From Eledone cirrhosa (taxonomy: Eukaryota > Mollusca > Cephalopoda > Octopoda > Eledonidae), in assembly GCA_964016885.1 (NCBI GenBank), contig OZ024744.1:73062474-73126473 (forward strand): 64,000 bases of DNA, written 5' to 3'. The notes beneath the pieces are model-generated. The model had not been told where the DNA came from and searched no databases. It worked only from the letters and a program-made list of their open reading frames with translations. The position numbers and the translations under genes were made by a program. Shown piece by piece: positions 3,291-48,610 of the stretch (within the stretch, counting starts at the first letter, position 1; each line of letters starts with the position of its first letter).

Positions 3291-3326
3291 TCTTGACGTT
3301 TCGGACGCTAGTCCTTCATCAGAAGA
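3291..3326 (-). ncRNA. Hammerhead-like motif, minimal
   Basis: Minus strand: stem I UCUU/AAGA, core CUGAUGA, one A, stem II GGAC/GUCC with loop UAGC, GAAA, then CGUC. Stem III would be A-U and C-G with no loop, so a single copy could not close it and only a dimer could. A second, mutated copy lies at 40023-40054 in a matching repeat. Confidence 0.5.
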
Positions 3327-3574
3327 AAGAATGAGAAATAAGATAGATTGAAGGGACGGGCGGGGTGGAATTGGTTAAAATGTCTTTAGATAAAAATAAC
3401 CGGTCCATTCATGTTGACATCTCTTATATATATATATATATACACACACAGACTCACTTTATATAATTGTATCTTAATTCATTTCATATGTATCAGATTG
3501 AATCTTTTAAAAAACTTTATTGCAGGTTTTGTATCTTTATTATTGTAGACAAAATAACAAGAGTTATCTATATA

Positions 3575-4216
3575 TCTAAAACAGAGAATGTCTGTCTGTC
3601 TGACTCCCTAAAACTCGAGAACCACCCAACCGATTGTTTTCAAACTTTACACATATAATACTTATGGTCGTTGAGCAAAAAATATTTCAAATTTTCAATG
3701 CTCTAGGGACCGCATCATTAGTCTGTCTTTTTAGATAGATACATAGCTACGATGTCGCGCCCTTATAATATCTGTCTGTATGTCTGGCTGTCTGCATTAT
3801 GACGCTATCTGTGTGTGTGTGTGTATATATATGTGTATATATATAGTGTGTAACGTTTTTCGAAACATTTACGATTCTTTGCTTAAACTTTAATCTGTTA
3901 TTTTAATATATATATATATAATTATATATTCGTGTACAGATATTTTTGCATACACAATAACAAAATATAAACAAATGTATTTATTTCACGAGGCTCGACA
4001 GCAGTAAAAACAAAAACAAAAAAGAGAGGGAACACAATTACATGCTTTTGAAAAATCTCAATGGAAAATTATTTGCCTATTCACCCAAAGCGACTTCACC
4101 TTTTATTAGGACTTCTGCATCAATTGGTGAACATACAACGAAACTGCTTCAGAAAGGAGGGATAAACATGCCAATCTATGTTTAGAATCCCGAGCAACGC
4201 CGGGCCATTCTGCTAG
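3575..4216 (+). mobile_element. Non-autonomous Helitron-like element
   Basis: Starts A|TCTAAAACAGAGAATGTC and ends with a CCCG/CGGG hairpin, CATTCTG and CTAG|T. This is the A|TC...CTAG|T signature of Helitrons without target duplication. The 5' end recurs at 55181 and 55972. No Rep/helicase coding sequence is present (642 bp). Confidence 0.7.
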
Positions 4217-4564
4217 TTATATATATTTTATCATTATTATTACTGTTTTTCTTCTTTTTCTAAATACATGGATGGCAATATGTATGTGTGTATATGTGTA
4301 TGAGTGTGATTCTATACATATATGTAGATTCCAAAGTTATGTCAGAGGGGGGGGGGGAGTATCCACAATTAAAAAAAGCACTCAATACATTGGTAAGGTT
4401 TAGGCATCTTATATATATATAATAAAAAAGAGATTAATAATCGTTACCTTTTGGTACCCAACCAATGGAGACTGCCTTTGGTTCTGATATATTAAGTTGT
4501 TTATTTTAAAGTGTTTACATTTATCTAAAGCCTATCCATTATAATTTTACGTAAGAACCACCTT

Positions 4565-4755
4565 AATAATTGTTTCTACTTTTGGCACAAGGCCAGCAAT
4601 TATCCCAGTGTATTACTGGTATTTTATGTTATCGACCCCCGTAAGGATGAAAGGCAAAGTTAACTTCGGTGGGATTTGAACTCAGACTATAAAGGGCCAT
4701 AACTCTTTGCTGCAAAGCATGGCGTCAGACCCTCTACCGATACTGCCAATCCACT
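4565..4755 (-). mobile_element. tRNA-derived SINE, type B
   Basis: Full head-to-tail copy in reverse. The B-box equivalent is GGATTTGAACTCAGACTAT; the head ends in CTACCGATACTGCCAATCC. Confidence 0.82.
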
Positions 4756-4866
4756 TAATAATGAGAAAGTTAATTATGTTACTAAATTCCTCTAAATTCT
4801 TGATTATTTTTTAAAAAAAATTTAGTTTGTCATCTTTTATTAAAAATATAGTAATGTAATTGTTAA

Positions 4867-5071
4867 ACCTTTAGTATTTACATTACTCATATTTACTATT
4901 ATATTTTCATAGTAAAGGCTTTACTTCACATAATATCAAATCTGAGATTTTTATATTATTTATTTTGAGAACAATACCTTAACATCAGTATGAGCAGCTG
5001 GTTATGGCTAGTTTCAACAGAAAGAGATGAGAGAATTCTGGCTGGATCCGGCTGGTTTAAATGCTAAAGCC
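4867..5071 (+). mobile_element. TTAA-flanked MITE (piggyBac-like ends)
   Basis: TTAA is at 4863-4866, then a degenerate CCTTTAG-type end. The interior has TACATTACTCATATTTAC, AGTAAAGGC and AGAGAATTCTGGC, and the far end is AAATGCTAAAG. Confidence 0.65.
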
Positions 5072-5354
5072 ACTAATGGTGCCAAACTCATACTAGATTA
5101 TCTGTTTTGCCAGACTAGATGATATTAATTCACTAGAAACCTATTATGAAGTTAGGAGCACACTTCCACTACCACCACCCACCCATCAACTACAATAATA
5201 TAAAGGTGAAAATGTTGATCCTTTTTTACACCAAACCTCCTGAAACCACACCTCTTTCTATGATACAGTGCTGTTTGTTTTAAAACATTTAAAACCTTCC
5301 AGCTTGATTTCATGAAAGAAACTTTGTGAAGTTATGCTCCAAACACTGGCTTAA

Positions 5355-5562
5355 CCCTTTAGCCTTTACATTACTCTTCATATACTATTGTATTTTCATT
5401 GTAAAGGCTCTACCTCACATAATTTCGAATCTATGAGATTTTGATGTTATTTATTTTGAGGACAATACCTTAACATCAGTAGGAGCAAACAGTTATGGCC
5501 AGTTTGAACAGAAATAGGTGAGAGAATTCTGGCCAGATATGGCTGGTTTAAATGATAAAGGA
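5355..5562 (+). mobile_element. TTAA-flanked MITE
   Basis: TTAA|CCCTTTAGC at the left and ATAAAGGA|TTAA at the right. Same family as 4867-5071. Confidence 0.7.
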
Positions 5563-5807
5563 TTAATGGGAAAGTTAAATTATATCACTAAATCCCTCTA
5601 AATTATCGGTTCCTTTTCAAAAATAATGTATGGAAGAGTTTAAGGCTTTGAAATTCACTAATTATAATTTCTTGCAGTGTTAATTTCAATTGTCTCTAGT
5701 AAATGGATAAATTTTGAACTTTTAATCATTAGTTTATTAAGTCATTCTTTTTACTTTAGCAATTTACCCACAATTCTCTTTTCATTTGGTCTCTGAGTTA
5801 TATTCTA

Positions 5808-5859
5808 CCATATCTGTCTGTCTGTAGGTATGTATGTATGTATGTATATGTATATATGC

Positions 5860-5909
<50 letters not shown>

Positions 5910-6130
5910 ATGTGAGTATGTATGTCTTTAGGTAGGTATGCATTTATGCATGTGTGTATGTATGCATGTGTATGTATGTATGTATGTATGTAGGTGCATT
6001 CATGTGTATGCATGTACATGCATGCATCCATGTGTATGAGAGCGAGCAAGAAAAATAGAGAGAGAGAGTGTGTATATCTGTGTGTGTGTTTGTGTGTATG
6101 CATGTCTGTGTGTGTGTGCATGCCATATAG
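5808..6130. repeat. Compound TGTA/TA/TG microsatellite
   Basis: Tandem GTAT, (TA)n and (GT)n blocks. The long frames across it are repeats of Tyr, Ile, His and Thr codons and are not genes. Confidence 0.9.
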
Positions 6131-6462
6131 ATAGATAAGCACGTCAGTGTTCCCTTGTTTCCTGAACCATGCCAATGTATACCACAGAATGATTCAACAT
6201 CTTGTATGAGTCTTTCCTTGATGAATGCCATATTGTAAAGATTTAGTAAAGACCATATTTTATTATTATTATTATTATTATTATATTTCATTTTACATTT
6301 TTTTTTCTCGAAAAAAAAATCATTACCTTTTCTTTCCTTGATAGCTCTTCAGTCTTGCTTCATAGAATCTACTAGGTTGTTAAGTGGAATCCCTTGCTGC
6401 TAATTGGAACAGGATCTGGGGGATTTTATTTTATTTTATTTTATTTTTGGTGGGGGGAGAGC

Positions 6463-6470
6463 TTTTTTTT

Positions 6471-6509
<39 letters not shown>

Positions 6510-6511
6510 TT
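6463..6511. repeat. (TTTA)n microsatellite
   Basis: About twelve perfect four-base units. Confidence 0.9.
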
Positions 6512-6540
6512 GCTTTATTTGTTGTTTTCTTCTCATATAA

Positions 6541-6726
6541 TATAATTGTTTCTACTTTTGGCACAAGGCCAGCAATTATCCCAGTGCATTACTGGTACTT
6601 TATTTTATCGACCCCGTAAGGATGAAAGGCAAAGTTAACCTAGGCGGGATTTGAACTCAGTATGGCAAGGGCCGTAACTCTATGCATCAAAGCCTGGCGT
6701 CCAACCCTCTACCGATACTGCCAAAA
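6541..6726 (-). mobile_element. tRNA-derived SINE, type B
   Basis: Reverse copy closely matching 4565-4755, abutting the (TTTA)n tract. Confidence 0.82.
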
Positions 6727-7202
6727 TGCCATAGGAATATGTATTCAATTGTCACTTAACAGTTGAGAGCCCAAAACACAGACAGACAGACTCACATACA
6801 CACACATACACAGAAAATGACTTGGCAGGGTTAGGGAAAATTGGAATTCCCTAGGTTTGTTTACATTATGTGCAATCAGTAAGCTGTTTTGTTGAATTCA
6901 TACCCTTGACAACTACATTCTTGTTCTCATGAGATTAGACATGTATTATAATTGTCCTAGGTTATGTACATACATCTAGCTTAATTACTACAGCTTTTGT
7001 TTTATTTCATTTATTTATATATGTATATATGTGTGTATATATATACATATATATATCTATATCTATATATATATATGTGTGTGTATTTATATATCTATAT
7101 ATATATATTTATATGTATTTATATATATATATATATGTATTTATATTTCATTTCTGAATTTGTTTAGCAAGATTCTTTATCTGAAATCGTGTGTTGAAAC
7201 CG

Positions 7203-7657
7203 ATATTGTTATACTTTGGGAGGGTCATGTTGCCAATAAGAAACACACGCACCAGTTGCTTTCACTTCAATTTATTATAATAAATTTATAAATTTAGGAA
7301 TTTATAAATTTATAAATTTCTGGTTGGTTGGTTGGTTCCACAACCAGTTAGTTGTTTATATATTGTGTGACCTCATCAGTGACTGGGGATTCTTTGCTTT
7401 GTTTTTGTGCCTCTCCTTTGTTCTGTCCTACGCAATTTTGTTTCTTTGTGTGTGTTGTGTGCTCAGTCTGCGCATGCGTCACGTCCGGGTGTCTGTGTGT
7501 GTTTATATTTGTTTATTTATTTGTTTATTTACATGTTACCGGTTGGTTGTTTGTTCTATGTGTGTGTGTGTTTTCATTTTGTCCTTAATTGTAAGTTGTG
7601 ATGTTGCTGTTCCACTCATATTTTCTATTTAATTTTGGTTGTAATTCTTTTATGTTT
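7203..7657 (-). repeat. Left inverted arm of the Penelope-like element
   Basis: Inverted copy of 9805-10255, starting with ATTGTTATACTTTGGGAGGG. The minus strand at 7585-7657 still encodes the endonuclease C-terminus (IKELQPKLNRKYEW). It keeps the hammerhead 5' half (TCATCAG on the + strand at 7373-7379) but has a deletion of about 25 bp that removes the second half of stem II and the GAAA, so its ribozyme is broken while that of the right arm is intact. Confidence 0.85.
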
Positions 7658-7659
7658 AG

Positions 7660-9504
7660 AAGCATAATAGAATGGAGGCCCAGCAACTGGGAGAAAAATC
7701 TGCAAATGGCTTGCGTAAGCTCATGCAGCGCTCGCGTAATGGAGAGATAGCATGTTTTCCAACAGACAAGTCTGGCAGAATGTCGGTTGACAGCCTGCCA
7801 AACTACATCCAGGCAATGCAACCCCACATCACTAACACAAGAGAGGTAACACCACAGGAGCATGAGGATAGAGAAAAAGCCCTCAATGCCCATATGGTGA
7901 TGTGGACGAATATAATGCAGCCCAACAAAAGGACTGCCAACAACTTCCAGGCCTGGAATAATGACGTGCCGGCGTTGTATGGGCTTCGAAAAGACCATAA
8001 AACGGGCAATGACCCTGTCACGGGACCACCAACACGGCCAGTCTGTGGGGCTAACATTGCTAGTAACTACAGACTGTCCTACTTCCTCTCCCTGATCATA
8101 TGCCCCATCATTGAAATGTCCCCAGATGTATGTGACAACACGGAGGACCTCCTCAGCAGAATCAGCGAGAGTAACCGATCTAGGGACCTAACAAACTGCA
8201 TAATAGGTAGTATGGATGTTGTGTCCCTGTATCCATCTATTGACGTGGATTTTGCTGTGGAGAAATGCGTAGAAATGATCAGCGAGAGCAATGTTGAGTT
8301 CCGTGGGATTGATACCAGTGAGCTGGGACTTCTACTTAAACTTACCTATAGTAATAATTACCTAGACACTTACGACCTTAGCAACCTGTGCCCTACAAGA
8401 CCAGCAAGAGGCAGACCACCTACCATTACCTCAATGGCCAAAAAAAACCACACAGATAGATGGAACGGGTGGACCAGAGCCATACGGACCCCCGAAAACC
8501 AAGATGAACTAAAGAAAATGATTGCACATGCAGTGGGAGCCAGCATAAAACTAACCCTTAAGGAACATATGTTCAAATTTAATGGAAAAACATATGCCCC
8601 AGAGGAAGGAGCAGCCATTGGTGTTAGCATTGCAGGCGACATAGCTAACTTATTCATGGTATGGTGGGACAGTAGACTTAAACTTAAACTTAAAGAACAA
8701 TTAGAAGAGAGCTTAACCCTGATAATGTACTCCCGCTACATTGATGATATAAACATCGTAGTTAAGACACCCCCACTAGAGAACAGTCAGGAACTAGAGA
8801 AAAACACAATGGAAAGCATCCAGCAAATAGTTAACTCCATCCACCAGAGTATTAGAGTTACTATAGACTACCCAAGTAAACACACCAACCATCGATTACC
8901 TGTACTAGACACAGAGCTCTGGTTAGATACCATTAATAACAAAAAACAAATCCTCCATTCCCATTATGCCAAACCCATGACTTCCAAACATCTGATCCAC
9001 CGAAACTCGGCTGTTTCGGACCATACTAAAATCAACATACTGATTGCGGATTTGGTACGGGCGATGAGAAACGTGTCCCGCATGTGCAACCCCGAAGAAC
9101 TAGAGAGACACATACAACACTTCATCCACCGTATGCAGTTCTCTGGTTACAATCAGAGAGATAAAATCAGAGTGTATAGAGGAGCCAGAACCAAATGGGA
9201 AAAAATGGTAAATAATGACACAAATGGGACCTGCCCCTTGTATAAGAGCAAATTTTGGAATAGAATGAATAGAATAAAAAGAACTAGGAATAAGGCTAAT
9301 AGAATAAACTCATGGTATGATAGTAATAAATACCAGAGTGTAATGTTCATCGATACAACCCCTAGAGGTGAATTAGCTTACAAATTTAGAAGGGCCCTAG
9401 ATAAACATAAACTCAATATTAAGATAGTAGAAAGACCAGGTACCTCCGTAAAAACACTTATTAGCAAGACATACCCTTTTCAAAGACCCCCCCTGTATAG
9501 ATAA
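7660..9504 (+). CDS. Penelope-like reverse transcriptase (N-terminally truncated, frameshifted at its end)
   Basis: The frame is open from 7660, where the left inverted arm joins; the first ATG is at 7672 and gives 610 residues. From that ATG, RT landmarks in order are TDKSGR (31-36), LYGLRKDHK (102-110), the TRPV segment near 121, motif A MDVVSLYPSID (181-191) with the first catalytic Asp, motif B GAAIGVSIAGDIANLF (about 313-328), and motif C YIDD (356-359) with the catalytic Asp pair. DK, YGL-K-HK and sLYpSI are typical of Penelope-like RTs. It would copy element RNA by target-primed reverse transcription. The N-terminal extension usual in the group is missing because of truncation at the arm junction. 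The frame ends at TAA 9502-9504, just after a run of seven C; the endonuclease domain continues in the next frame. Confidence 0.85.
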   Translation, partial: KHNRMEAQQLGEKSANGLRKLMQRSRNGEIACFPTDKSGRMSVDSLPNYIQAMQPHITNTREVTPQEHEDREKALNAHMVMWTNIMQPNKRTANNFQAWNNDVPALYGLRKDHKTGNDPVTGPPTRPVCGANIASNYRLSYFLSLIICPIIEMSPDVCDNTEDLLSRISESNRSRDLTNCIIGSMDVVSLYPSIDVDFAVEKCVEMISESNVEFRGIDTSELGLLLKLTYSNNYLDTYDLSNLCPTRPARGRPPTITSMAKKNHTDRWNGWTRAIRTPENQDELKKMIAHAVGASIKLTLKEHMFKFNGKTYAPEEGAAIGVSIAGDIANLFMVWWDSRLKLKLKEQLEESLTLIMYSRYIDDINIVVKTPPLENSQELEKNTMESIQQIVNSIHQSIRVTIDYPSKHTNHRLPVLDTELWLDTINNKKQILHSHYAKPMTSKHLIHRNSAVSDHTKINILIADLVRAMRNVSRMCNPEELERHIQHFIHRMQFSGYNQRDKIRVYRGARTKWEKMVNNDTNGTCPLYKSKFWNRMNRIKRTRNKANRINSWYDSNKYQSVMFIDTTPRGELAYKFRRALDKHKLNIKIVERPGTSVKTLISKTYPFQRPPLYR

Positions 9505-9877
9505 GAAATGTATAACCTGTAAAATAAGCCCCCATATTAACTGTAAAACTAGAAATGTAGTGTATAGCATAAGATGTACTGAAGGACAATGTAGAGACAA
9601 AAATATAGTGTACATAGGTGAGACAGCTCGTAGTGTAGGGGAACGGATAAATGAACACTGGCGAGACCTTCAAGATAATAAAGAATCATCTGTACTCTAC
9701 CAACATGCAAAAATAGAACACAAGGGTAAATTAGAGAACATAGAAATAAAAATAGAATCTACACACAGAAAAGACGCAATATTTAGACAAATCAGAGAGG
9801 CAACAAACATAAAAGAATTACAACCAAAATTAAATAGAAAATATGAGTGGAACAGCAACATCACAACTTACAATTAA
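9488..9877 (+). CDS. GIY-YIG endonuclease domain of the Penelope-like element
   Basis: This region is read in the +1 frame relative to the RT and overlaps its last codons. It starts at the C-run with a cysteine-rich linker (Cys codons at 9494, 9509, 9518 and 9542, then IRC and GQC) and continues into VYIGETARSVGERINEHWRDL, the YIG strand followed by the catalytic Arg helix. The C-terminal REATNIKELQPKLN carries the Glu expected to bind metal. Stop TAA is at 9875-9877. In Penelope-like elements this domain nicks target DNA. There is no independent start codon with context, so the domain was probably part of one RT-endonuclease protein before the frameshift. Confidence 0.85.
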   Translation, partial: PPCIDKKCITCKISPHINCKTRNVVYSIRCTEGQCRDKNIVYIGETARSVGERINEHWRDLQDNKESSVLYQHAKIEHKGKLENIEIKIESTHRKDAIFRQIREATNIKELQPKLNRKYEWNSNITTYN

Positions 9878-10255
9878 GGACAAAATGAAAACACACACAC
9901 ACATAGAACAAACAACCAACCGGTAACATGTAAATAAACAAATAAATAAACAAATATAAACACACACAGACACCCGGATGTGGCGCATGCGCAGACTGAG
10001 CTCACAACACACACACAGAAACAAAATGGCGTAGGACAGAACAAAGGAGAGGCACAAAAACAAAGAAAAGAATCCCCAGTCACTGATGAGGTCACAGAAT
10101 GTGTGACGAAAGAAATTTGACAACTATCTGCTTGTGGAACCAACCAACCAACCAGAAATTTATAAATTTATAAATTTATTATAATAAATTGAAGTGAAAG
10201 CAACTGGTGCGTGTGTTTCTTATTGGCAACATGACCCTCCCAAAGTATAACAATA
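9805..10255 (+). repeat. Right (native 3') arm of the Penelope-like element
   Basis: It contains the end of the endonuclease frame, a GT/CA-rich 3' UTR, a hammerhead motif (10079-10121), a (AACC)n stretch and an AT-rich TATAAATTT repeat, and ends in CTCCCAAAGTATAACAATA. The same terminus recurs at 11747 and 20503. Confidence 0.85.
10079..10121 (+). ncRNA. Hammerhead ribozyme motif in the Penelope 3' arm
   Basis: Stem I is GUCA (10079-10082) with UGAC (10118-10121). The core CUGAUGA is at 10083-10089. Stem II is GUCACA/UGUGAC with loop GAAUG, after one unpaired G. GAAA is at 10108-10111. Stem III is a single A-U pair with loop GAAA, and the cleavage triplet AUU ends at 10117. Minimal hammerheads in Penelope-like elements are known. 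Confidence 0.78.
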
Positions 10256-10373: not shown

Positions 10374-10430
<57 letters not shown>

Positions 10431-11030: not shown

Positions 11031-11383
11031 CCATATATATATATATATATATATGTGTGTATATATATATATATGTGTGTGTGTATATATGTGTGTATAT
11101 ATATATATTATGTATATATATATATATGTGTATATATATATAAATTATGTATATATATATATATATATATCGTTTCTGAATTTGTTTAGCAAGATTCTTT
11201 ATCTGAAATCGTGTGTTGAAACCGATATTGTTATACTTTGGGAGGGTCATGTTGCCAATAAGAAACACACGCACCAGTTGCTTTCACTTCAATTTAATTT
11301 AATATATATTTATAAATTTACAAATTTATAAATTTCTGGTTGGTTGGTTGGTTCCACAACCAGATAGTTGTTTATATATATAT

Positions 11384-11428
11384 AGTCATAGTTCTTTCGT
11401 CACACACTCTGTGACCTCTTCAGTGACT
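11384..11428 (-). ncRNA. Hammerhead ribozyme motif, left palindrome arm
   Basis: Mirror image of 11541-11585: stem I AGUCA/UGACU, core CUGAAGA, stem II GUCACA/UGUGAC, GAAA, and cleavage triplet CUA directly before UGACU. Confidence 0.78.
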
Positions 11429-11540
11429 GGGGATTTCTTTCTTCGTTTCTGTGCCTTTCCTTTCTTCTATCCTACGCCATTTTTCAAAATGGCGTAGGAT
11501 AGAAGAAAGGAAAGGCACAGAAACGAAGAAAGAAATCCCC

Positions 11541-11585
11541 AGTCACTGAAGAGGTCACAGAGTGTGTGACGAAAGAACTATGACT
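11541..11585 (+). ncRNA. Hammerhead ribozyme motif, right palindrome arm
   Basis: Stem I AGUCA (11541-11545) pairs with UGACU (11581-11585). Core CUGAAGA is at 11546-11552. Stem II is GUCACA/UGUGAC with loop GAGUG and one unpaired G before it. GAAA is at 11571-11574. Stem III is one A-U pair with loop GAAC, and cleavage triplet CUA ends at 11580. Confidence 0.8.
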
Positions 11586-11914
11586 ATATATATATAAACA
11601 ACTATCTGGTTGTGGAACCAACCAACCAACCAACCAGAAATTTATAAATTTGTAAATTTATAAATATATATTAAATTAAATTGAAGTGAAAGCAACTGGT
11701 GCGTGTGTTTCTTATTGGCAACATGACCCTCCCAAAGTATAACAATATATATATATATATATATGCATATATATATGCAGAGGTTATATTTAATTTGTTG
11801 GGATTCAACAAGCTTAAACATTTTTATAACTGATATAAAGCACTCAACAGATTAGTGGAGTAAATACATAATATATTAATAAATGGAAACTATATTTATA
11901 AAACTATATTTATT

Positions 11915-12191: not shown

Positions 12192-12490
12192 CATCATCAT
12201 TTTACGTCCGCTTTTCCCTGCTTGCAATGTTTGGACGGGAACTGATTCTGGCTTGATTTCTACAGCTGGATGCCCTTCCTAACACCAACCTCATTTACAG
12301 TGAGTGCTGGGTGCTTTTTTGCCCTGGCACCTCCACGACCACTTTGCAGTGGAATGATATGGACCCCAGTCCCTATCATCTCATTTCTACAGCTGAGTAA
12401 ACTGGAGCAATGTGAAATAAAGTGCCTTGCTCAAGGAAACAACACATCACCCGGTCTGAGAATTGAACTCACAACCTTTCGATTGCCTCC
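12192..12490 (-). mobile_element. tRNA-derived SINE with LINE-type 3' tail (inverted partner 1)
   Basis: Minus-strand copy of the SINE at 12533-12890. The tRNA-like head is at 12425-12490 and the CATCATCATTTTACGTCC end is at 12192-12207. Together with the next SINE it forms an inverted pair with arms of about 300 bp around a (TA)n centre. Confidence 0.85.
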
Positions 12491-12532
12491 ATATATATAT
12501 ATATATATATACATAATTTATATATATATATA

Positions 12533-12890
12533 TGGAGGCACATGGCTTAGTGGTTAGAGCATTGGCCTTGCAATCGAAAGGTTGTGAGTTCAATTCTCAG
12601 ACCGGGTGATGTGTTGTTTCCTTGAGCAAGACACTTTATTTCACATTGCTCCAGTTTACTCAGCTGTAGAAATGAGATGATAGGGACTGGGGTCCATAAC
12701 GTTCCACTGCAAAGTGGACGTGGAGGTGCCACGGCAAAAAATCACCCACCACTCACTGTAAATGAGGTTGGTGTTAGGAAGGGCATCCAGCTGTAGAAAT
12801 CAAGCCAACATCAGCTCCCATCCCACCCTTGCAAGCAGGGGAAAAGCGGACGTAAAATGAAATGATGAAATGATGATGATGATATATATA
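12533..12890 (+). mobile_element. tRNA-derived SINE with LINE-type 3' tail (inverted partner 2)
   Basis: The head has an A-box-like TAGTGGTTAGAGCATTGG and a B-box-like GGTTGTGAGTTCAATTC. A core follows with TTGAGCAAGACACTTTAT, TTTACTCAGCTGTAGAAATG and a region around CACTGTAAATGAGGTTGG. The 3' end CCCACCCTTGCAAGC, AAAAGCGGACGTAAAATG and (ATG)n is shared with LINE copies at 25395-25450 and 30660-30710. Confidence 0.87.
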
Positions 12891-14856: not shown

Positions 14857-14899
14857 ACGATGAACTAGTTTCTAGCTTATTAGCTGTCATCAGCATCGT
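14857..14899 (-). ncRNA. Hammerhead ribozyme motif (best-formed compact copy)
   Basis: Minus strand: stem I ACGAUG/CAUCGU (6 bp), core CUGAUGA, stem II AGCU/AGCU with loop AAUA closed by a C-A mismatch at position 10.1-11.1, GAAA, stem III AC/GU with loop UA, and cleavage triplet GUU directly before CAUCGU. All conserved core positions are present. Confidence 0.85.
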
Positions 14900-16972: not shown

Positions 16973-17021
<49 letters not shown>

Positions 17022-17023
17022 AA

Positions 17024-17225
17024 ATAAAGATCCGAAGGCATGGTTTAAATTTCCAATCATTTTAATCTCGACACGTTTCAATAAGAGATAGATTGATTGG
17101 GCAGCCTTGATCAATTATCACTGATCTCCTCAGCTGAAAATGAATTGTCTTCAAATCCTTGATATGAGGGAGAAAATTTAAAGATGTTCACTCACTAGAG
17201 TTTTGTCCCCCATATAAGTTTATTG
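17024..17225 (-). mobile_element. Non-autonomous repeat with hammerhead-like core (copy of 48405-48610)
   Basis: Same repeat as 48.4-48.6 kb in the opposite orientation. Core CUGAGGA is on the minus strand at 17127-17133 and GAAACGUGUC at 17070-17079. The stem I complement is not preserved, so this copy is probably inactive. Confidence 0.55.
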
Positions 17226-21378: not shown

Positions 21379-21434
<56 letters not shown>

Positions 21435-21440
<6 letters not shown>

Positions 21441-21900
21441 AGTTTATGTTGGTTGTATACCAACACCTCAGTATGCAGGCTGGCGCACTCGACGAAGTGC
21501 GCAGGTTGGTTTGGTTACTCCGGAGTAGTGTAAAATAAAGTCAAATAAGAGTCAAATGATTAAAATTTTGCTTCGTTTATTACTGCTATATATATTTCAG
21601 TGACAGCCATCTTTGGCTGTGACCTCTTCAGGCAGTTTGAATTAGTATGGTATAGACAAGTACATATGTTGTTTAGGTGTATAATATTGTCAATACTCTG
21701 ATATGCCCAGTTCCTTGTTGGGTTGTTAATTCACTGAGGAACTGGAGTCATATGAATTCAAACAAACGAATTTCAGTGTCAAAGGTCCCCTTCTCCTCTC
21801 ATTGGTCAGTTATTAGAACATTCCTCATTCTAAGTGTTGTTATTGTTGGAGTTAGCTTAAAAATTGATAAAATGGTAGAAGGGACAAGGTGTTAAAGGAA
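21435..21900 (-). mobile_element. Unclassified non-autonomous repeat bearing a hammerhead
   Basis: Non-coding insert after a long (TA)n tract. A GCGCAC/GTGCGC hairpin is at 21484-21502, and the ribozyme near 21.6 kb is on the minus strand. Confidence 0.45.
21582..21636 (-). ncRNA. Hammerhead ribozyme motif with long stem II
   Basis: Minus strand: stem I ACUGC/GCAGU (5 bp), core CUGAAGA, stem II of eleven positions (GGUCACAGCCA against UGGCUGUCACU, one C-C mismatch and one G-U pair, loop AAGA), GAAA, stem III AUA/UAU with loop UA, and cleavage triplet AUA directly before GCAGU. Confidence 0.85.
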
Positions 21901-21959
21901 CAAAATAACAAAAAAAGTGTCAAACTTCCCATTGGTCAGTTCTGAGAGCATTCCTCAGT

Positions 21960-22690
21960 CAGAAGTCTATAGAATTCTTTCTGGGGTGAGGCTCTCTGTA
22001 GTGTTTTTGCCTGCTATTGTTCAGTACATTTGACCTCTACCATTATTTTGGTAGTGTTGTTGGTGTAGTGGTCAGCTTATATCTTGCTGCTGCTAACAAT
22101 TTAGAAGTATCCAGTTTGTGTTTTTTCTTCATCCCTCCTGCCACCATCGTAGTGGTGGTGGTGGTGGGAGGGGGGGGTTCTTCCATGTATATGAAGAAAT
22201 ATAAGGCAATAAATGAAGAAAACAGAAAATAAATAAATAATATAATAAAATAATTAATATAATTTGTATAATTTGAAAATAAATAAATAAATAAAGAATA
22301 AAGAATAAATGAAAAATTGGTGAAAAAGTAATGAAAATGAATATGGAGAAGTGAGAAATAATGTAGGATAAAGTGTGTGTGTGTGCTATAACCAATCTCA
22401 AGGTCAGAATATGTTGGATAGATTGGTATGAGACAAGATGTTAAGATGAGATATTCAAACTAAATGTGTTTGTGTTATAATCAATCTCAACTTAAAATAA
22501 ATATAAGGTGATACAGTGAAGAGGGCAGAAAACAAATAACATTAATAAAGAGAAATCAAGATTTAAGATTGGAACTTGAAAATCAGAAATCTAGTAAGTT
22601 AAAAGTGTTTGTGTTATTGATGTTGGCCAAATTATTATGGCTGTGTCCGATTCTATCTGTAGGCTATCATGGTGTCTGCTCTGCCTGGGT
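21960..22690. other. Low-complexity AT-rich sequence
   Basis: A (GTG)n/G-rich patch at 22148-22178 and AATA-rich tracts. Nothing gene-like. Confidence 0.4.
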
Positions 22691-22692
22691 TG

Positions 22693-22900
22693 TTCCCTAT
22701 GGCTTGAGGGGAGTTCACAACCTAGGGTGTTGTTATTGCCCATATAGCTTGAGGGAGGTCTGGCCGAGAGGTGTTTTCATGTTCTGTAGAAGTCCCTATA
22801 GCTTGAGGGGAGTTCACATCTTCCTGTGTTGCTACTGTCCATATATCTTGAGAAAGGTCCCGGCTCTAAGGTGTCTGCATGTCCCGAAGAAGTCGGTTCT
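22693..22900. repeat. Two tandem units of about 101 bp
   Basis: CCCTATGGCTTGAGGGGAGT (22693) recurs as CCCTATAGCTTGAGGGGAGT (22794), with diverged remainders. A 134-codon frame covers it but consists of repeated Tyr-Gly/Ser-Leu-Arg units and has no known domain. Confidence 0.65.
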
Positions 22901-23047
22901 GAGGTTTATCAGGCCGCTTCCACCTCTTAGTATTGATCTGCTATTTATTTTAGTTCTTAGTTTTTATTTGTAATTGCAGTTATATTTGTGGATGTATTTT
23001 AGGATTGTGAATTTTTAATCTTTGTTATTACACAACAGGTAAATTAT

Positions 23048-31017: not shown

Positions 31018-33199
31018 CATCATCATCATCATCATCATCATTTAACGTCTATCTTCCACGCTTGCAAGGGTTTGGACGGGAATTTTCCCACTTGAGGCAA
31101 GATTGGTTGTCTTGCTCGTATAGGACTGTCTGGCGGGTTTTCTATGGCTGGATGCCCTTCCTAACACCAACCAAGTTTACAGTGTGGACTGGGGAGTTTT
31201 TACCGTGTTACCTACACGGCCACATTACAGCGTGACTGTGTTTTTTTGTCGTGACACCTACACGTCTGGTGGGTTTTCTACGGCTGGGTGCCCTTCCCAA
31301 CACCAACCACGTTTACAGTGTGGACTGGGAGGTTTTTACCGTGTTACCTACACGGCCACATTACAGCGTGACTGTGTTTTTTTGTCGTGACATCTACACA
31401 ACCTCATTTATTTCGGACTGGATGTTGTGGTACAAACATAACTTTACATCGAAAGGGGTGGTGTGGATGGGGTGGGGGTAGTGGAACGGGGGTGTATTTT
31501 GGTTAAGAGGTGCCTACTGACTGTAGGTTTCGCTCTGTACTTAGGCAAGGCGGGTCTTCTGTATTACTGTGTAGCCCCAAAGATCTCGGTCCAGTGACAT
31601 TGTCTTGGAGAGGTGAAAGTGTGTGAGGTCAGAATTTATCAAGTCGTCCCAGGTTTATCTGGGTCTGCCTACTCCGTGGCTACCATCTATTTTTATCGCC
31701 CTGCACTTTTTTATACAGCTGTCGTCTTTCATGCGCATCACGTGACCATACCAACGTAGTCTTCTCTCGAGTAAACAACATCTGATCCCTCTTATTCCTA
31801 ATTTCTCCCTTAGTTCATTTATGCTTTGCCGTTCACGTATATTACTATTACACATCCAACGGAGCATGCAAGCTTCATTCCTCTCCAGTCTGCGTATATC
31901 CTCTGCACATAATGCCCAAGTGTCACTGCCATGTAACATTGCTGTTCGTATGCAGGCATCATACAGCCTGCCTTTCATTTTTAGAGAGAACTCTTTAGCG
32001 GCCAATAGTGGTATAAGCTCTCTGAACCTTTTCCATCCCGTTCTGACTCTAGCTACTGTACTTTCAGAGCCCCCTCCACCACTGCTGATTTTGTCACCCA
32101 GGTAACGGAAGGTGTCCACTATTTCTATAGAACCATCTGGGCAATGGAAGGAGCTAGTATCCTGTGGGCACTTGCTACTACTTATTGCACCTGAGTACCG
32201 GCCACATATAAGATCTATATTCTTAGTTAGCTTACCTGTGATCGCACTACATCTTTTATGCACCCATACTTTGCATTTGGGACATAAAATGGAGTTTCTG
32301 CCTACTCCTTTCCTACACACTGCCATTTCCCAGATGGGACCAATGCCCTATTTTCCTTCCTACAAACTAGAACTTTAATCTTTGACAGGTTAATTTTAAG
32401 GCCTTTTGATTCTAGGCCATGCTTCCATGTTTGGAATTTCTTCTCTAATTCAGCCATTGATTCAGCTATGAGCGTTAGATCTTCTGCGTATAAGAGTTCC
32501 CATGGGCAGCCAGTCTTGAACTCCTCTGTTATAGCCTGAAGGGCAATAATAACTAGTAGGGGGCTAAGGACGGAGCCCTGATGAACACCAACTTTTACGC
32601 TAAACTCTTCACTATATTCGTTGTTAATTCTAACCTTGCTGACTGTTTCTTTATACATGGCTTGTATAGCTCTCACAAGCCATTCATCAACACCTAGTTT
32701 TCTAAGAGCCCACCAGATAATGGAGCGGGGGGACTCTGTCAAAGGCTTTCTCCAAGTCAACAAAAGCTAAGTATAGGGGTTTACTTTTAGCTAGGTACTT
32801 CTCCTGTAGTTGTCGTACAATGAAAAGAGCGTCTGTGGTACTTTTACCTGACACAAACCCGAACTGCATTTCATCTAGATCAATTCGCTCTCTGATTAGT
32901 TGCGCTATTCCTTTTTCTGTGACCTTCATGACCTGGTCAATTAATTTAATGTCTCTATAGTTTCCCCTATCTAGGGCATCTCCTTTACTCTTGTAGCAGT
33001 TAATGATGATGCTGCTGCTACGCCAGTCCTTCGGAACGACCCCATTCTGTATGACTTGGTTTACTATCCGGGTGACCATAGTTCCAGATGCTTTCAGCAT
33101 TTCAGCAACTATTTCCAAAGGCCCAGCCGCTTTGCCTGTCTTCATATCTTTGATCGCCTTACTTATTATATTACCTTCAACTTGCACTGCTGGTCCCTC

Positions 33200-40624: not shown

Positions 40625-40832
40625 AAGAGTCAGTTGAATGTCAGATAAAATGCTTTGTAGCATAGAGTTGCGGCCGTTTATGCTCTAAATTCAAATTCCA
40701 CCAAGATTAGCTTTGTCTTTCATCCTTTCAGAGGTCGATAAAATAAAGTAACAGTAACGCAGTGGGGTCGATTTAATTAACTTACACTTCCCCTTTCCCC
40801 AAAATTGCTGGCCTAAATCAGAAATGACCATT
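40625..40832 (+). mobile_element. tRNA-derived SINE, type B, diverged
   Basis: ATAGAGTTGCGGCCGTTTATG, AATAAAGTAACAGTAACG and ATTGCTGGCC segments are retained; the head is degenerate. Confidence 0.68.
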
Positions 40833-41104
40833 TTTAGAAATATGAAAACATAGGGATATTTTTCTATGGGTAGAAAATATTGGGATCGCTCTGACTAGTT
40901 TCATTTCTACTTGAAAATTCATCAGAAAATATATGTAAGCAGTTATAGTAATCGCTCAACACTATTTTGTGTTTCAGTACTTAGACTGCAGCCATGTTAA
41001 GGCCTTGACTTAGTTGATCATATTGACCCCAATACTTATTTCTTCAAGTCTGGTACTTATTTTATTGACCTGGTTTTTTGTCAAAATGTTAATTCTTAGG
41101 ATGC

Positions 41105-42455
41105 AACAAGCATAAACATAGACACAGATACAGTTTGGTTTTGTACCTTGGAATAGTACAACAGATGCCCTCTTCTTAGTGAAACAACTTCATGAGAGGT
41201 TCTTAGAGAAGAATAAGCCACTGTACTTAGCCTTTGTTGACCTAGAGAAGGCCTTTGATATAGTACCCCGATCTGTCACCTGATGGTCCCTAAGGAAACT
41301 AGGTGTAGAAGAATGGCTTGTGAGGACAATGCAAGCTATGTACAGGGGTGCTGTCAGTAAAGTGAGAGTAGGAATGGAGTTTAGTGAAGAATTCCAGATA
41401 CAAGTAGAAGTACAAGCCCACTCTTGTTCATTATAGTTCTCCAAGTCATAACAGAGGAGTTTAAGACTGGCTGCCCATGGGAACTTCTCTATGCTGATGA
41501 TCTGGTACTTATAGGAGAATCAGTAGAGGAGCTAGAGAATAAATTCTGGCTACGGAAACAGCAGTTGGAATCAAGAAGACTGAAAGTGAACCTAGCTAAG
41601 ACTAAAGTGTTGATAAGTAGAAGAGAGGACAAAACTCTGATTCCATCAGGGAAATGGCCATGTTCGATATGTAGAAAAGGAGTTGGCATAAATTCTATAA
41701 AATGTGCGCAATGCAGATCTTGGATACACAAGAGATGTAGTGGGATAGCAGGCAAACTAACAGGTAGTGAAAACTACATATGCAGTAGATGTACAGTAGA
41801 AGGTGCAGTGATAGACACATTTTTCAAATGGAGGTAGGATCTATAGAGGCGGTTGATAGCTTCCGATCTTAGGTGATCAGATTAGCAAGGGAGGAGGGTG
41901 CTCCAAGGCCATAGTATCTAGAATAAGGACGGGTTGGAAGAAGTTTAGGGAGCTCTTCCTCTGTTGACAAAGAAGGGTTTCTCTCTACGAACGAAAGGAT
42001 AGTTATATGATGCTTGTGTGAGATGCGTGATGCTGCATGGTAGTGAGACATGGGAAGCAACTGCGGAGGCTATGCGACAGCTGGAGAGAAATGAAACAGT
42101 CATGCTGATGTGTAATGTCAATGTGCATGTACGACCAAGCATAGACGAGTTGAGAGAGAAACTGGGTATAAGAGGGATAAGGTGTAGTGTGTGGGAGAGA
42201 AGACTGCATTGGTATGGACATGTGATGCACATGGAGGATGACCGCTTGGTAAAGAAGTGCCAAGAAATCCCAGTAGAAGGAAGACACAGTAGAGGAAGAC
42301 CATGAAAAACATGGGTGGGGATGGTGAGAGCTGACCTCAGATCGCTGAAGCTCACAGAGATAACGAAGGACCGTGACAAATGGAGAGATGATGTGCTGAA
42401 GAGGACCCATCCCTCCCTTGCCAGCAGGGAAAAGTGTAAGTAAAATGATGATGGT
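41105..42455 (+). mobile_element. LINE, short-UTR family, best-preserved copy
   Basis: It begins inside the RT (FGFVPWN, TTDALFLVKQL) and continues AFVDLEKAFDIVPR with one in-frame stop, the SLRKLGVEEWLV block, and LLYADDLVLIGES with intact YADD (frame 41424-41837). Then come ICRKGVGINSIKC and CAQCRSWIHKRCSG as a zinc-finger-like region, then in other frames GWKKFRELF, MLHGSETWEATAEAM, RPSIDELREKLGIRG and RRLHWYGHVMHMEDDR. It ends in AGCAGGGAAAAG and (ATG)n. Several frameshifts and stops make it non-functional. The endonuclease half is absent. Confidence 0.86.
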
Positions 42456-42598
42456 GACAGAAACACATATACAATATACTTCTGCAGTTCTATCTACCAA
42501 ATTCCACTCACAAAGTACTAGTCAACACAAGACACTTGCTGAAGGATTCCAGAACCTTTTGGTTTTGAAGTGAACTTTTTACCACATAACCAGGCCTG

Positions 42599-43402: not shown

Positions 43403-43497
43403 TTAAAAAGTTCTCTTGACCATTTGTTTGGCAAGATCAGTAAATAATGAATGATGAGTAAGAATATTTAGAGCCGTAGTATTAATCTATATGATAA

Positions 43498-43740: not shown

Positions 43741-44372
43741 ACAAAAATCACATTAAACTATATGTTAAAATATATATTTAGTGCTGCATTGGAGTCCTGT
43801 TTTGTGGGTCTCTGTGTATGTGTGTGAGTGTCTGTGGTTGTCTGTGTGTGTGTGTCTGGATGGTGTATGTATATCATTGCATCTGTTTGTGTGTGTGAGT
43901 GTTTGTGTGTATGTCTGCATGTCTGTATCTATGTGCGTGTTTCTGAATGATATGTGAATGTCTGTATCTATATGTGTGTGCGTGTGTGTATGTCATTGCA
44001 TCTGTGTGTGTATATCTGTCTGTATGTGTTTTAGCTCTTTAACACGGGAACATGTTCTGTTTCTACTATCCAAAGTCAGAGCTTGTTTTATTTGTATATC
44101 TATGTATTTGGTGAGTATAAATTATTTTTGTTATATTCACAATTGCTGTCTTTTCAATAGTTCTGTTGTTTGGATGAAATATATCAGTCAATATTACATT
44201 ATCTGTCCAGTTTATGTAAATTGATGTGATGTGGTTGAAACAAAACAGAGAAGAGGAAGTATCACACTGTAAAATTGAAAGAGAGAGAGAGAGTGTGTGC
44301 GTGTGTGTGTATGAGTGAGTGTGTTTATTGGTTTGCTTGATTGAATAAATAAGCAATCATCTAAATATAAAG

Positions 44373-44545
44373 CGGCGATTTGGCAGAGTCATTAAGACAT
44401 TGGATGGAATGCTTTACGGTATTTTTCCCACTGCATTGCATGCTCTGAGTTCAAATCCTGCCATGGTCAATTTTGCCTTTCATCCTTTCGAGGTCGATAA
44501 CAAAAATGTACCAGTCAAGTACAAGGGGTCGATTCTTTCTCTATA
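44373..44545 (+). mobile_element. tRNA-derived SINE, type B, diverged
   Basis: GGCAGAGTCATTAAGACATT head, CTGAGTTCAAATCCTGCC, TTTGCCTTTCATCCTTTCG. The tail was replaced by other sequence. Confidence 0.65.
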
Positions 44546-45251
44546 GAAAAAAATCGGCTGTGTTCAGACCGGGAGAAGGTTGGGCTCTGCCAGGTTTAAA
44601 AGTGCCCTAGACATACCGTATAATGGTGCCTCTATGACTCCACAAGGAGTTCTGGGATATTTATCCTTTTTATGAAATATGAAGACAGTTATGGGTTATC
44701 TGAATTCTTACTAGGAAATTTTTTTTTTTTTGCTGCTGGCTGTATGAATTTAGCTGTGCTGCCAGCAGTGAACAAATTGTGTTGTGTTGTAGTTAGCTAG
44801 TGCCAGGTGGGGAGCAGTGAACACATAAGATATAAGTAAAACAGTAAAAGGATTATTATATTAGGAATCAGACCAGAAAGGCCATCAACAGCAAATAGTA
44901 GTAGAGTCACATTTCTAAAGTATCTCGTTAATAATCATGGTGTGAAGTATGTATGGTCAGGACTATGAATAATAATAATAATAATGTAATGGTGGTGATG
45001 TTGATGATGATGATGATGATGATGATAAAGATGATGATACAAGACCACCTGAGATTGTAAACTAGATATATATGATCTGATTGTCTGATTGTTTGTTTGT
45101 TTTTAACGTCCCTCTCCCCTGCTTACCTACATTATACTTTACCTAGGTTAAAAAAACAAGGGTAATAAAAAGTATTAAAAAATTCAAAATATAACAATAA
45201 ATATATATGAGCAAATACACACACATATATCATCATCATCATCATCATCGG

Positions 45252-45540
45252 ACATGAAGGTGTGCAGCTTAGTGGTTTTGGTGTTCAGCTCATAATCATC
45301 AAATCATGTGTTCAATTCCTAGGTCAGGTGGCACATTGTGTCCTTGAGCAAGACACTTTATTTCATGTTGCTCCAGTCCGCTCAGTTGGGAAAAAAATCA
45401 GTTGCTACAACACTGGTGCCATGCATGGACAACCGCTGGTCACCTGCAAGACAGCCTGCTCAGGCTTATGCTTCAGATATGAAACTAATGGTTACTCAGT
45501 CATTTGTAAAACATCCATTGGTCAGTCACAATCGAAGGAG
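45252..45540 (+). mobile_element. tRNA-derived SINE, type A, diverged
   Basis: GTGTGCAGCTTAGTGGTTTTG head, CCTTGAGCAAGACACTTTAT core, ACTGGTGCCATGCATGGACA 3' part. Frames over it are not genes. Confidence 0.7.
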
Positions 45541-45544
45541 CCTT

Positions 45545-46409
45545 TTCCTTTCCTTTTCTTTTCTGCTTTTGCTCTTTCTTACAAGGTTGGCCATATGTTA
45601 TCATATATGCTTACCTGAAAAGGAATTAATTCTACCACAAGACAAAAATAGACACAATTCAAAGAATAATCTTCTTTCTAACTGTTTATATAAAACAAAT
45701 TTTTTACTAAGCAATTTTTAAATGAAGGATCTCTCGTTTTCTATCTCTCTCACATATTCTGTTGTTTTCTTTCTTCCCATTTTTCCTTCACCCTTTTACC
45801 ATTTTGGTTTTTGCTTTTCAGTGTTCCTTTTTTTTTCTTTGGTAGGGATGGGAGGGCTCGTTTCAACTAAGAGAGGAGGGCACAGACTGCTTAATATATG
45901 TTTTTGATATAGAAACTTATGAATGAAGAGCAAATGCTTATAACATTTGTACAAAGCAACATATATTCCTTTTATCCTTCTTTCATTTTTGAGGAATGGA
46001 ATATATATTCCATTTCTGAGTGTTTTTTTTTTTTCTTCTTAACTACTTTCTCTAATCTTTATTGTTAATAATGTACTATATTTGAAGCATTTAATGTGAG
46101 CAATGTTGTGAACAGATCTAGCAAAATGCTGCCATAGTGAATTATAATTTTATTTATTCATACTGTTATAATTTTCATTGATATATATATATAATAATTT
46201 TAAGTGATATGTTGAGATATATCAATTGAGAAACTAACTAGGCTTTAATACATATATATACATAAAAACAAATACAATTTAAGGTGTTAAATAATAGCAA
46301 AATTGTTTTATATTATGGATGCTCTAAACAGAAGTTTATTAACCTTTTACTGAAAAACATTATCTATACATATTTTATACGTATTGATTAAACCTAAAAT
46401 TAAGTTTTG

Positions 46410-46420
<11 letters not shown>
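45545..46420. other. AT-rich intronic sequence without recognised features
   Basis: T-rich tracts at 45820-45840 and 46020-46035. No motif. Confidence 0.4.
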
Positions 46421-46447
<27 letters not shown>

Positions 46448-46604
46448 GTAATATTGGGGTTTTCCAATAAGGATCGTGGTAAAGATGAGAGAAGCACTGT
46501 GCTATCCAGTTTCCCTGATACAGCAGTAATTCAAAATTAACTGAGTATTTTCTCAGCCATTGTAGATTCTGTTGGAGATTGTTAGGCTACAGGCTGCAGA
46601 GCTC

Positions 46605-47060
46605 AACATTTATAAATGGAGAGAAAATAAACAAGTTATACTTAAAACATAAATTTAATTCTACATATTTTTCAATGTAAAGCAGCAGGCGATACCATGA
46701 TACATACAAGGCATCTGCCCATTGCTCTACATATCTTCAGGAATTTAGATATTGTTAGAACTTTCAAGAGTAATACATACAAGAGATAACTCCATAACAT
46801 ATCAATTAATACATTGCAAATTACAAGCACATTCAAAAGCAACAGCAAAGCTGAAGTAGTATTAAAAACAGTATATCAAAATGTAGTACTTCTGTACATC
46901 CAAACATTAACAGACATATTAAAAGATTTTTAGTGTGCATATTGACAAGAAAAAGAATGATAGTTGCCCACACTCTATATTGAAACATATGTAGAATGAA
47001 AATTATAAATATGTTTTAAGTATAATTTGGTATTCTCTCTCTCTATTTATAACACTGGAA
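46605..47060. repeat. Inverted-repeat element with hammerhead in the left arm
   Basis: 46605-46690 is related in inverse orientation to 46975-47060 (TTATACTTAAAACATA and ATTCTACATAT blocks with their complements). The right arm keeps TTGAAACATATGTAGAAT, but its 5' core is degenerate. Confidence 0.62.
46657..46745 (-). ncRNA. Hammerhead ribozyme motif with extended stem II
   Basis: Minus strand: stem I AAUUC/GAAUU (5 bp), core CUGAAGA, stem II AUGUAGAGCA/UGCUUUACAU (10 pairs, one G-U) closing a loop of about 32 nt, GAAA, A-U closing stem III, and cleavage triplet GUA directly before GAAUU. Confidence 0.72.
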
Positions 47061-47599
47061 GGTAATATCCGTAGTAGTAGAGCACTCAGCCCATGGGATG
47101 AGTTTGGTAGAAGTAGTAACAACAGTTAGTTCACCTTATACGGATCTTCAGCTCAGACTGGTCATGGATATACGGAACAAGAAGAACAACTGTATTGAAT
47201 GCACATGCGCAGAAACGGTCACTTCACCCAAGCGATACAAAACCACGCGTGAAAAGTGTAAAGGAGATAACTGTGATAGTCCGGAATTTTGAGTTGATTA
47301 GAAAATTAGAATGTTGTTGTTATTCAATCCGGAGCTTTGTAGTTATGCAAGAGGTGTTTCCAGACATGTGGACAACATGAGAACATTTCATTTCTTAAAT
47401 TTAGGAAATTGCTATTACATAATCTCCTTAGAATGTTTATCCTTTCTTCAATACACAGTCCACAAGAAGGATTGCCCCTTGCGTATGGCTTGGACTTAGT
47501 GATGGCTTTCCATTGAATGGAGTAGTCTATACCTGAGTATTGAGGGACCATACGTGACTCACGAGTTTCATATATATGAAAATTAAACAATATAAATAT

Positions 47600-47655
47600 C
47601 GGAACTAGATGTTGAAACGGGAAGCGCTAAACCTTCAAGCCCTGACTCTCTAATA
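47600..47655 (+). repeat. Partial copy of the GAAACGG two-stem repeat
   Basis: GAACTAGATGTTGAAACGG and CCCTGACTCTC correspond to the 3' half of 16723-16841. Confidence 0.5.
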
Positions 47656-47667
47656 TATATATATATA

Positions 47668-47790
47668 TATATATCATTATAATTATCATCATTTAACATC
47701 CACTTTCCTTGCTAACAACGATTGAATGAGTCTACATAGACTATGTCAGTACTGAAGCAGGGTTATTGACCTTCCAAACAGTGCAGGGAA
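47668..47790 (-). repeat. Degenerate LINE tail
   Basis: ATCATTATAATTATCATCAT, then TTAACATCCACTTTCC and GCTAACAACG. Confidence 0.45.
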
Positions 47791-47791
47791 T

Positions 47792-48057
47792 CTGTAACAT
47801 CCGTATCGTCTAAATAGTGTATGTTTTGGTATATACACATCCATGTAGGGTTGGGTATTTGAGTTAACTCAAATACCCAACCCTACATGGAGCCTCTTGG
47901 TGGTCTACATGGCGGGTTCTTGCACGCACAGACTCGGGGACTCAGTTTCTCAACAGGACAACGGCACATACAGAGTTCGATACGAGCTGACTACTTGCTC
48001 TACACATGGATGTGTATATACCAAAACATACACTATTTAGATGATACAGATGTTACA
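47792..48057. repeat. Foldback element with a 50-bp perfect palindrome
   Basis: 47841-47890 is a perfect 50-bp palindrome (arms CCATGTAGGGTTGGGTATTT plus GAGTT, no spacer). Outside it, 47792-47846 is inverted at 48001-48057 (about 55 bp, one or two differences), giving a nested structure with a 110-bp asymmetric loop. Confidence 0.88.
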
Positions 48058-48404
48058 ATTCAATCGATACACGTATAGCAGCACATTGAACAGAATTTAC
48101 TTGCGTGTGTATAGGGTTGTGATTGACCCAATTTTTCTAATTTACATCGTTAAAATTGATATTTGACCAATATAACATTCGGTGCATACTATGTTGGTAT
48201 ATATATTTTTTCTCTGACCTCGCGTCGGTGTGTGTGAGTGTATGTGTACTCACTAACACTAATTGTGACCGACCAACATTCTACAGATTTGATGCCTCGA
48301 TTAGACCTATTCAGTGTCTTTTACAGCTATTGAGAGATAGAGACTTGATAGATTTCTGACCCTGACTGAAGACGATAGCAGTTGGCGTGTTTTGGCTGCT
48401 GAAT

Positions 48405-48610
48405 CTTCATATGGGGAACAAAACTCTAGTGAGTGAACATCGTTAGTTTTTCCTCCCTCATATCAAGGATTTGAAGACAATTCATTATTCACCTGATGAG
48501 ATTAGTGATAATCAATCATGACCACATGATCGATCTATCTCTTATTGAAACATGTGTTGTGATTAAAATGATTGGAAATTTATACCATGCCTTCGGATCT
48601 TTATTTTGAT
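48405..48610 (+). mobile_element. Non-autonomous repeat bearing a hammerhead
   Basis: Opposite-oriented sister of 17024-17225. Flanked by (TA)n at its 3' side. No coding potential. Confidence 0.6.
48489..48562 (+). ncRNA. Hammerhead ribozyme motif with very long stem II
   Basis: Stem I UCAC (48489-48492) pairs with GUGA (48559-48562). Core CUGAUGA is at 48493-48499. The stem II hairpin of 47 nt has apical AUCAUG/CAUGAU and basal GAU-AG-GAUA against UAUC-CU-AUU with U-U mismatches. GAAA is at 48547-48550. Stem III is AC/GU with loop AUGU. Cleavage triplet GUU ends at 48558. Confidence 0.72.

Follow-up and report, generated by a model that had tools for sequence, protein, structure and literature searches.

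We examined a 64,000-nucleotide stretch of the Eledone cirrhosa genome (contig OZ024744.1, positions 73,062,474 to 73,126,473, forward strand; hereafter the window) that carries a dispersed set of motifs resembling hammerhead ribozymes. The original prediction had placed seven such motifs here, and all seven are found where it put them, each with the conserved core, a stem II, an NUH triplet, and a complementary stem I. The seven sites represent five repeat families and are not seven independent cases, as one family (A) holds those beginning at 10079, 11384, and 11541. A sixth family (F) lies at 3291–3326 on the reverse strand, where the span of the original prediction starts. Common to all six families are the CUGANGA box, a hairpin, the GAAA box, the NUH triplet, and a stem I that is complementary at both core edges. 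We consider it likely that these sites are minimal type I hammerheads, predicted to have a stem III of 2 bp or less, and that at least six families carry them close to their 3′ ends; of these families, A certainly and B and E probably are Penelope-like elements (PLEs).

Family A has the most complete architecture. An open frame of 614 amino acids (7660–9504, +) encodes a reverse transcriptase (RT) with the YIDD-type motif SRYIDDINIVV, and a GIY-YIG endonuclease (9452–9877, +) is read in a frame that differs from that of the RT in this copy. The RT scored 19.2 bits against RVT_1, under the cut-off of 29.6; its best named relative is an Octopus vulgaris protein, with 70% identity over 99%. The endonuclease matched PF01541 at 25.6 bits, over the cut-off. 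Because the RT of one relative, P0001, continues into the start of the GIY-YIG domain in a single frame, the window copy is probably frame-broken. Relatives were fetched for A's RT (120) and for another frame (5); of these 125, 96 matched the endonuclease at E ≤ 1e-3 and 94 at 1e-5. Family A thus has an RT with a C-terminal GIY-YIG endonuclease, the arrangement by which a PLE is recognized. Of 30 A loci, one of which (L009) is the window, 13 gave a match to either domain, orientation disregarded. The original prediction had described the repeats as unrelated and non-autonomous, a description that is not supported for A, a family that holds both proteins.

The motif of the coding copy (10079–10121, +) starts 202 bases past the endonuclease frame and reads GUCA, CUGAUGA, G-GUCACA..UGUGAC, GAAAGAAAUU, and UGAC. 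A partial copy upstream of the coding part, located by an inverted-repeat search at 7320–7394 (−), is inverted and not tandem as a pseudo-long terminal repeat would be, and it has a broken motif; the tandem-repeat scan covered periods up to 500. The other two A motifs lie one in each half of a 524-base palindrome that is nearly perfect (11225–11748, no strand) and in which two family A 3′ ends meet head to head, one motif at 11384–11428 (−) and the other at 11541–11585 (+). The palindrome contains two stretches of 100% identity (I8 and I13) whose registers lie 4 bases apart.

The family B element copy (21430–22918, −) has a 3′ end abutting (TA)n and a GIY-YIG C-terminal remnant at 22918–22868; its motif (21582–21636, −) reads ACUGC, CUGAAGA, GGUCACAGCC AAAGAU GGCUGUCACU, GAAAUAUAUAUA, and GCAGU. 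In family C (14857–14899, −), the parts are ACGAUG, CUGAUGA, C-AGCU AAUA AGCU-A, GAAACUAGUU, and CAUCGU, and in family F they are UCUU, CUGAUGA, A-GGAC UAGC GUCC, GAAACGUC, and AAGA, without stem III. Families D (46657–46745, −; stem I AAUUC/GAAUU) and E (48489–48562, +; stem I UCAC/GUGA) have long stem-loops II, with 60 and 47 nt, respectively, between the core parts. Upstream of D lies a GIY-YIG-type C-terminal remnant (47324–47524, −) that may or may not belong to D. A second, degenerate copy of E (17018–17204, −) has a stem I that is non-complementary at the core edge.

Given that repeats are not independent draws, six families constitute the fair count for a test against chance, for which dinucleotide shuffles in 2-kb blocks served as the null model. 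The window holds 41 CTGANGA cores, compared with a shuffle mean of 27. A strict descriptor scan retrieved five sites from three families (10079, 11384, 11541, 14857, and 3291) against a mean of 0.003, and none of 300 shuffles equalled it, with a tolerance of one extra nucleotide that was chosen after the sites had been seen. An untuned first scan returned three cores (48489, 21582, and 40889, the last judged false) against 0.075 per shuffle (40 shuffles). A loose scan, akin to that of the earlier reader, gave 10 sites against a mean of 0.96 and a maximum of 4 (300 shuffles), and an energy-based scan gave 11 sites, three of them judged spurious, against 0.36 per shuffle (200 shuffles). Matches dismissed as spurious were 42392–42473 from the energy-based scan, 17019–17137 in the pairing of that scan, and 40829–40931 (40889–40929 in other scans). 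The excess over shuffles is in the number of sites, not in their score. The motifs might instead be chance or relic look-alikes without ribozyme ancestry, in which hairpins of AT-rich repeats happen to lie beside CUGANGA and GAAA words. This explanation appears quite improbable: in each of six families, the strands of a complementary stem I sit precisely at the two core edges, against 0.003 to 0.96 matches per shuffle; most sampled copies retain the core, with compensatory changes in A; and A adjoins a PLE RT, a known hammerhead context.

Beyond the window, we examined copies of each family elsewhere in the genome. A first look returned 1,084 candidate copies for A, 710 for B, 1,758 for C, 271 for D, 1,654 for E, and 3,395 for F; 40 candidates were scored per family, and the copies examined are those nearest the window's sequence. 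For A, the strict descriptor was passed by 36 of 51 blastn-anchored rows (window plus L009–L038), or by 30 of 44 once seven repeated rows are omitted (the window again as L009, and the overlapping pairs L021/L026 and L020/L033). Stem II of this family changes in a compensatory manner, from GUCACA/UGUGAC to GUCGCA/UGCGAC in L012 and to GUUGCA/UGCAAC in L010, a divergent relative that contributes this change yet fails the descriptor. Both-sided changes affect 3 of 10 pairs in A, and the covariation score was equalled by 0 of 500 shuffles and the number of pair types by 24 of 500, in shuffles that, as for D and E, ignore the kinship of the copies. In D, the core is intact in 9 of 13 copies, stem II is 79.6% paired, and 8 of 23 pairs have both-sided changes. 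In E, the core is intact in 14 of 15 rows (including L069, the window itself), and the cleavage place is GUC in 11 of 12 rows of L070–L080 and GUU in the window. The sites at 46657 and 48489 had been entertained as chance matches on account of their long, imperfect stem II; that assignment was dropped after these copies were examined, the former because D copies retain the core and most of stem II, and the latter because it belongs to a family in which GUC prevails at the cleavage place. The motif region of B is identical in 30 of 30 copies, window copy included, which is uninformative on selection because the family is young. The core of C is intact in all eight copies, six of which match the full descriptor, and 7 of 9 F copies keep the motif. 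Compensation is clear in A, modest in D, and nearly absent in E, whose copies hardly vary. The covariation inferred originally is clear between families and modest within them.

The surroundings of these copies suggest that the sites are probably for the most part 3′ ends of PLEs, as has been described in other animals, and not a new non-autonomous repertoire. Copies of both B and E share a single 3′ end and have variable 5′ ends. GIY-YIG remnants, identified by motif and mutual likeness and not by Pfam, occur in 3 of 30 B copies: in that of the window, on the same strand ~1.2 kb upstream, and in L047 and L048, in inverted orientation. Another lies at greater distance in L062. In 3 of 12 E loci, such remnants are found ~0.9 to 1.2 kb upstream, L072 and L074 having them on the same strand and L079 in inverted orientation. 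No RT was read as part of the element in the B and E copies examined. Two B loci (L054 and L057) carry unassigned A-type endonuclease pieces, and E locus L072 carries a distant RT piece, likewise unassigned. For B and E, the labels "unrelated" and "non-autonomous" are consequently doubtful, as some copies carry or join GIY-YIG remnants and look 5′-truncated with one 3′ end. Of the large ribozyme-bearing non-autonomous repertoire first envisaged, the occurrence of hammerhead-type motifs in several repeat families stands, and non-autonomy is unsupported for A. Families A, B, and E often have inverted head-to-head copies. Among the secondary pieces listed for B, 16 of 18 lie in inverted orientation and stop at query base 190; this second fixed boundary tentatively recalls the PLE "tail" (PMC11167929). 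Two further observations concern the surroundings of B and D. An open frame of 234 amino acids with GIY-YIG-like motifs lies 3′ of one B copy (L040:2539-3240); it belongs to another element family, has five unnamed relatives, and gave zero Pfam matches. Compared with itself, the D region (46610–47052) gives a reverse match of 61%, which marks it as an old inverted repeat.

A (TA)n neighborhood, stated originally for nearly all sites, was scored as a run of 10 or more within ~60 bases past the 3′ end, with window copies excluded. Such runs follow 29 of 29 B copies and 7 of 8 F copies, so the statement holds there; for A, with 13 of 29 copies, and for E, with 5 of 11, it is only partly true, albeit above the 13% of background flank stretches. 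The counts in these four families agree with the AT-rich target expected of PLEs. We propose that the element would be transcribed, that the motif would cleave its transcript at the NUH triplet, possibly requiring a tandem arrangement of two copies or help from the element's protein, and that new copies would arise by target-primed reverse transcription at AT-rich DNA. The last step would account for the (TA)n neighborhood, for truncation at the 5′ side, and for inverted copies that lie head to head.

A precedent is the Poseidon element of Anolis carolinensis (PAc), which has an RT, a GIY-YIG domain, and a hammerhead (PMC11167929). According to that report, the PAc protein cuts AT-rich DNA and begins reverse transcription inside its own RNA, an inner start that gives a fixed tail, and the hammerhead remained uncleaved without protein in that assay and was dispensable for insertion in vitro. 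The domain pair (here in family A), the hammerhead, and the AT-rich target are shared with PAc, and an inner start that leaves a fixed tail may be a further common trait. The layouts differ in that the PAc motif lies at the junction of the pseudo-long terminal repeat and the open reading frame, in tandem copies, whereas the motif here is seen 3′ of the endonuclease, and copies often lie inverted. The weak stand-alone folds of the motifs described below would follow if cleavage needs the element's protein, as in the Anolis element.

Several results weigh against assigning the sites to PLE hammerheads. The covariance-model search that the original prediction had put forward as its check was negative for these families wherever Rfam hammerhead models were applied, an outcome that, by the letter of the refuting condition set there, counts against the prediction. 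The window gave 0 Rfam matches at the gathering cut-off, and at E ≤ 10, the hammerhead family was absent among the 150 of 193 matches listed. Slices around five sites (D and E excluded) gave zero hammerhead matches at E ≤ 10, and 16 loci with A–E copies (no F copy) likewise contained zero. A covariance model built for family A recovered only the four A copies in the window (E of 2e-9 or better), its eight weaker rows (E of 0.43–5.6) falling away from the sites of the other families. In a hammerhead, the base pair of stem II that immediately adjoins the core is of Watson-Crick type, most often G-C, a feature that may not be needed in PLE forms. Such direct closure is found in none of the six families: an extra G (A) or extra A (F) intervenes, or the first position is G-U (B and E), C-A (C), or U-U (D). 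RNAalifold consensus folds of D and E preferred other structures over the hammerhead. Only B (z of −2.28) and D (z of −3.78) stand out from shuffles in single-sequence energy; A, C, E, and F show no departure. In the best single-sequence folds, both stems form only at 10079, 11541, and 21582, and stem II alone forms in D; the folds of C, E, and F are other than hammerhead. The covariation of D and E is weak, with scores equalled by 47 and 31 of 500 shuffles, respectively. A protein link was not seen for C and F, for which only ~330 bases per copy were fetched, and that of D rests on one GIY-YIG remnant upstream in the window alone, where the fragment 47324–47626 gave zero Pfam matches. Lastly, tandem arrays of motif units were absent from the window for periods up to 500 bases.

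Some of these results also speak for look-alikes, specifically the Rfam negatives at each site tested, the non-canonical stem II junctions, and the alternative fold of E. To these are added the false matches that scans return (42392) and the energy-based scores, in which D (31.6) is the only site to top the best shuffled score (20.7). This last point, and the finding that not all A and E copies are followed by (TA)n, weaken the PLE hammerhead reading and raise the standing of look-alikes. We weigh the Rfam negatives as a possible limit of the models, because PLE motifs have been reported as minimal, without stem III (PMC6155905 and PMC7761336). With Rfam RF00163 (Hammerhead_1), the window sites share the core and the type I helix order; they go unscored, whereas a canonical family of the same genome, located outside the window (L001–L008), scores 35.3–37.8 bits. 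Rfam applied to 20 genome loci retrieved four canonical hammerheads, all belonging to this other family, and so confirmed four of L001–L008. Its members (e.g., L001:1501-1545) have a possible 2-bp stem III; several copies adjoin (TA)n, and one has a head-to-head neighbor. A look at the genome gave 14 matches to this canonical family among 74 scored. The miRNA rows of the list at E ≤ 10 were discarded, as they have sub-gathering scores and are placed on inverted and simple repeats.

The families could also be non-autonomous metazoan retrozymes, short hammerhead-bounded repeats that spread via circular RNA and are moved by Penelope-like proteins. Candidate copies in the hundreds to thousands per family would suit this explanation, as would the co-occurrence of PLEs and retrozymes described in PMC7761336 and the lack of a linked protein within the ~330 bases fetched per C and F copy. 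The metazoan non-LTR (long terminal repeat) retrozymes covered in PMC7229834 and PMC7761336 are similar in their type I hammerhead and high copy number, with one mollusc among the hosts. Unlike those retrozymes, the window has no tandem 150–300-bp motif-bounded units, and no tandem motif-bounded array is present at its sites. Additionally, A itself encodes an RT and an endonuclease, certain copies of B and E continue upstream for ~1 kb as far as GIY-YIG remnants, A and probably B and E are protein-linked, and both a canonical stem III and an Rfam match are lacking. We therefore regard a retrozyme origin as improbable.

A further explanation concerns activity and not ancestry: the motifs may be former hammerheads that are now inactive, kept by the youth of the repeats or by use of the hairpin in protein binding or in starting reverse transcription. 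PAc cleavage mutants are reported to insert in vitro nonetheless (PMC11167929). The palindrome at 11225–11748, if transcribed whole, would self-fold and hide both of its motifs in a long duplex, and the B copies are too similar to reveal selection. Conversely, the core is slightly better conserved than the remainder of the element, with 96% versus 89% in D and 99% versus 97% in E. We view inactivity as a possible but doubtful outcome. Extending the PLE hammerhead reading, the sites may belong to a large, Rfam-invisible class of Penelope hammerheads whose stem II is non-canonically closed, through a wobble, a mismatch, or an added nucleotide (and reaches 47–60 nt in two families). These would be inactive by themselves and activated by the element's protein, such that cleavage would be timed to insertion; we offer this as a speculative and rather unlikely proposal.

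Dispersed minimal hammerheads and PLE hammerheads number in the thousands across many animal genomes (PMC7761336 and PMC6155905), and the minimal PLE form is described by Cervera and De la Pena 2014 and by Luense, Weinberg and Breaker 2017, as cited in PMC6155905, PMC7761336, and PMC10085705. The motifs of the window resemble that form in the core, in stems I and II, in a stem III that is small or lacking, and in being both dispersed and in PLEs. They differ in the 47 (E) and 60 nt (D) between the core parts and in a first stem II position that is non-canonical or extra. No published description of these families was found in the open-licence literature, and both the extended stem II and the additional base may be new to it. 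The analysis links motifs of seemingly scattered and independent occurrence with the 3′ termini of truncated elements that are at least partly Penelope-like, and this link offers a reason for the (TA)n neighborhood. Given that public hammerhead models miss these families, counts based on Rfam, such as the 235 type I matches given for the giant squid genome (PMC6962438), may be low. If these variants do depend on the element's protein for cleavage, the role of the Penelope ribozyme would become testable in several families at once.

Other repeats in the window were recorded alongside the motifs. A tRNA-like repeat forms a 275-bp inverted repeat at 12212–12844 (95% complementary), within which the tRNA model scored 28.1 bits at 12543–12600 (cut-off of 29). 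A 136-bp tandem at 31128–31399 comprises two copies that are 94% alike, and a tandem array with periods of 48, 83, 96, and 131 bp occupies 62424–62889.

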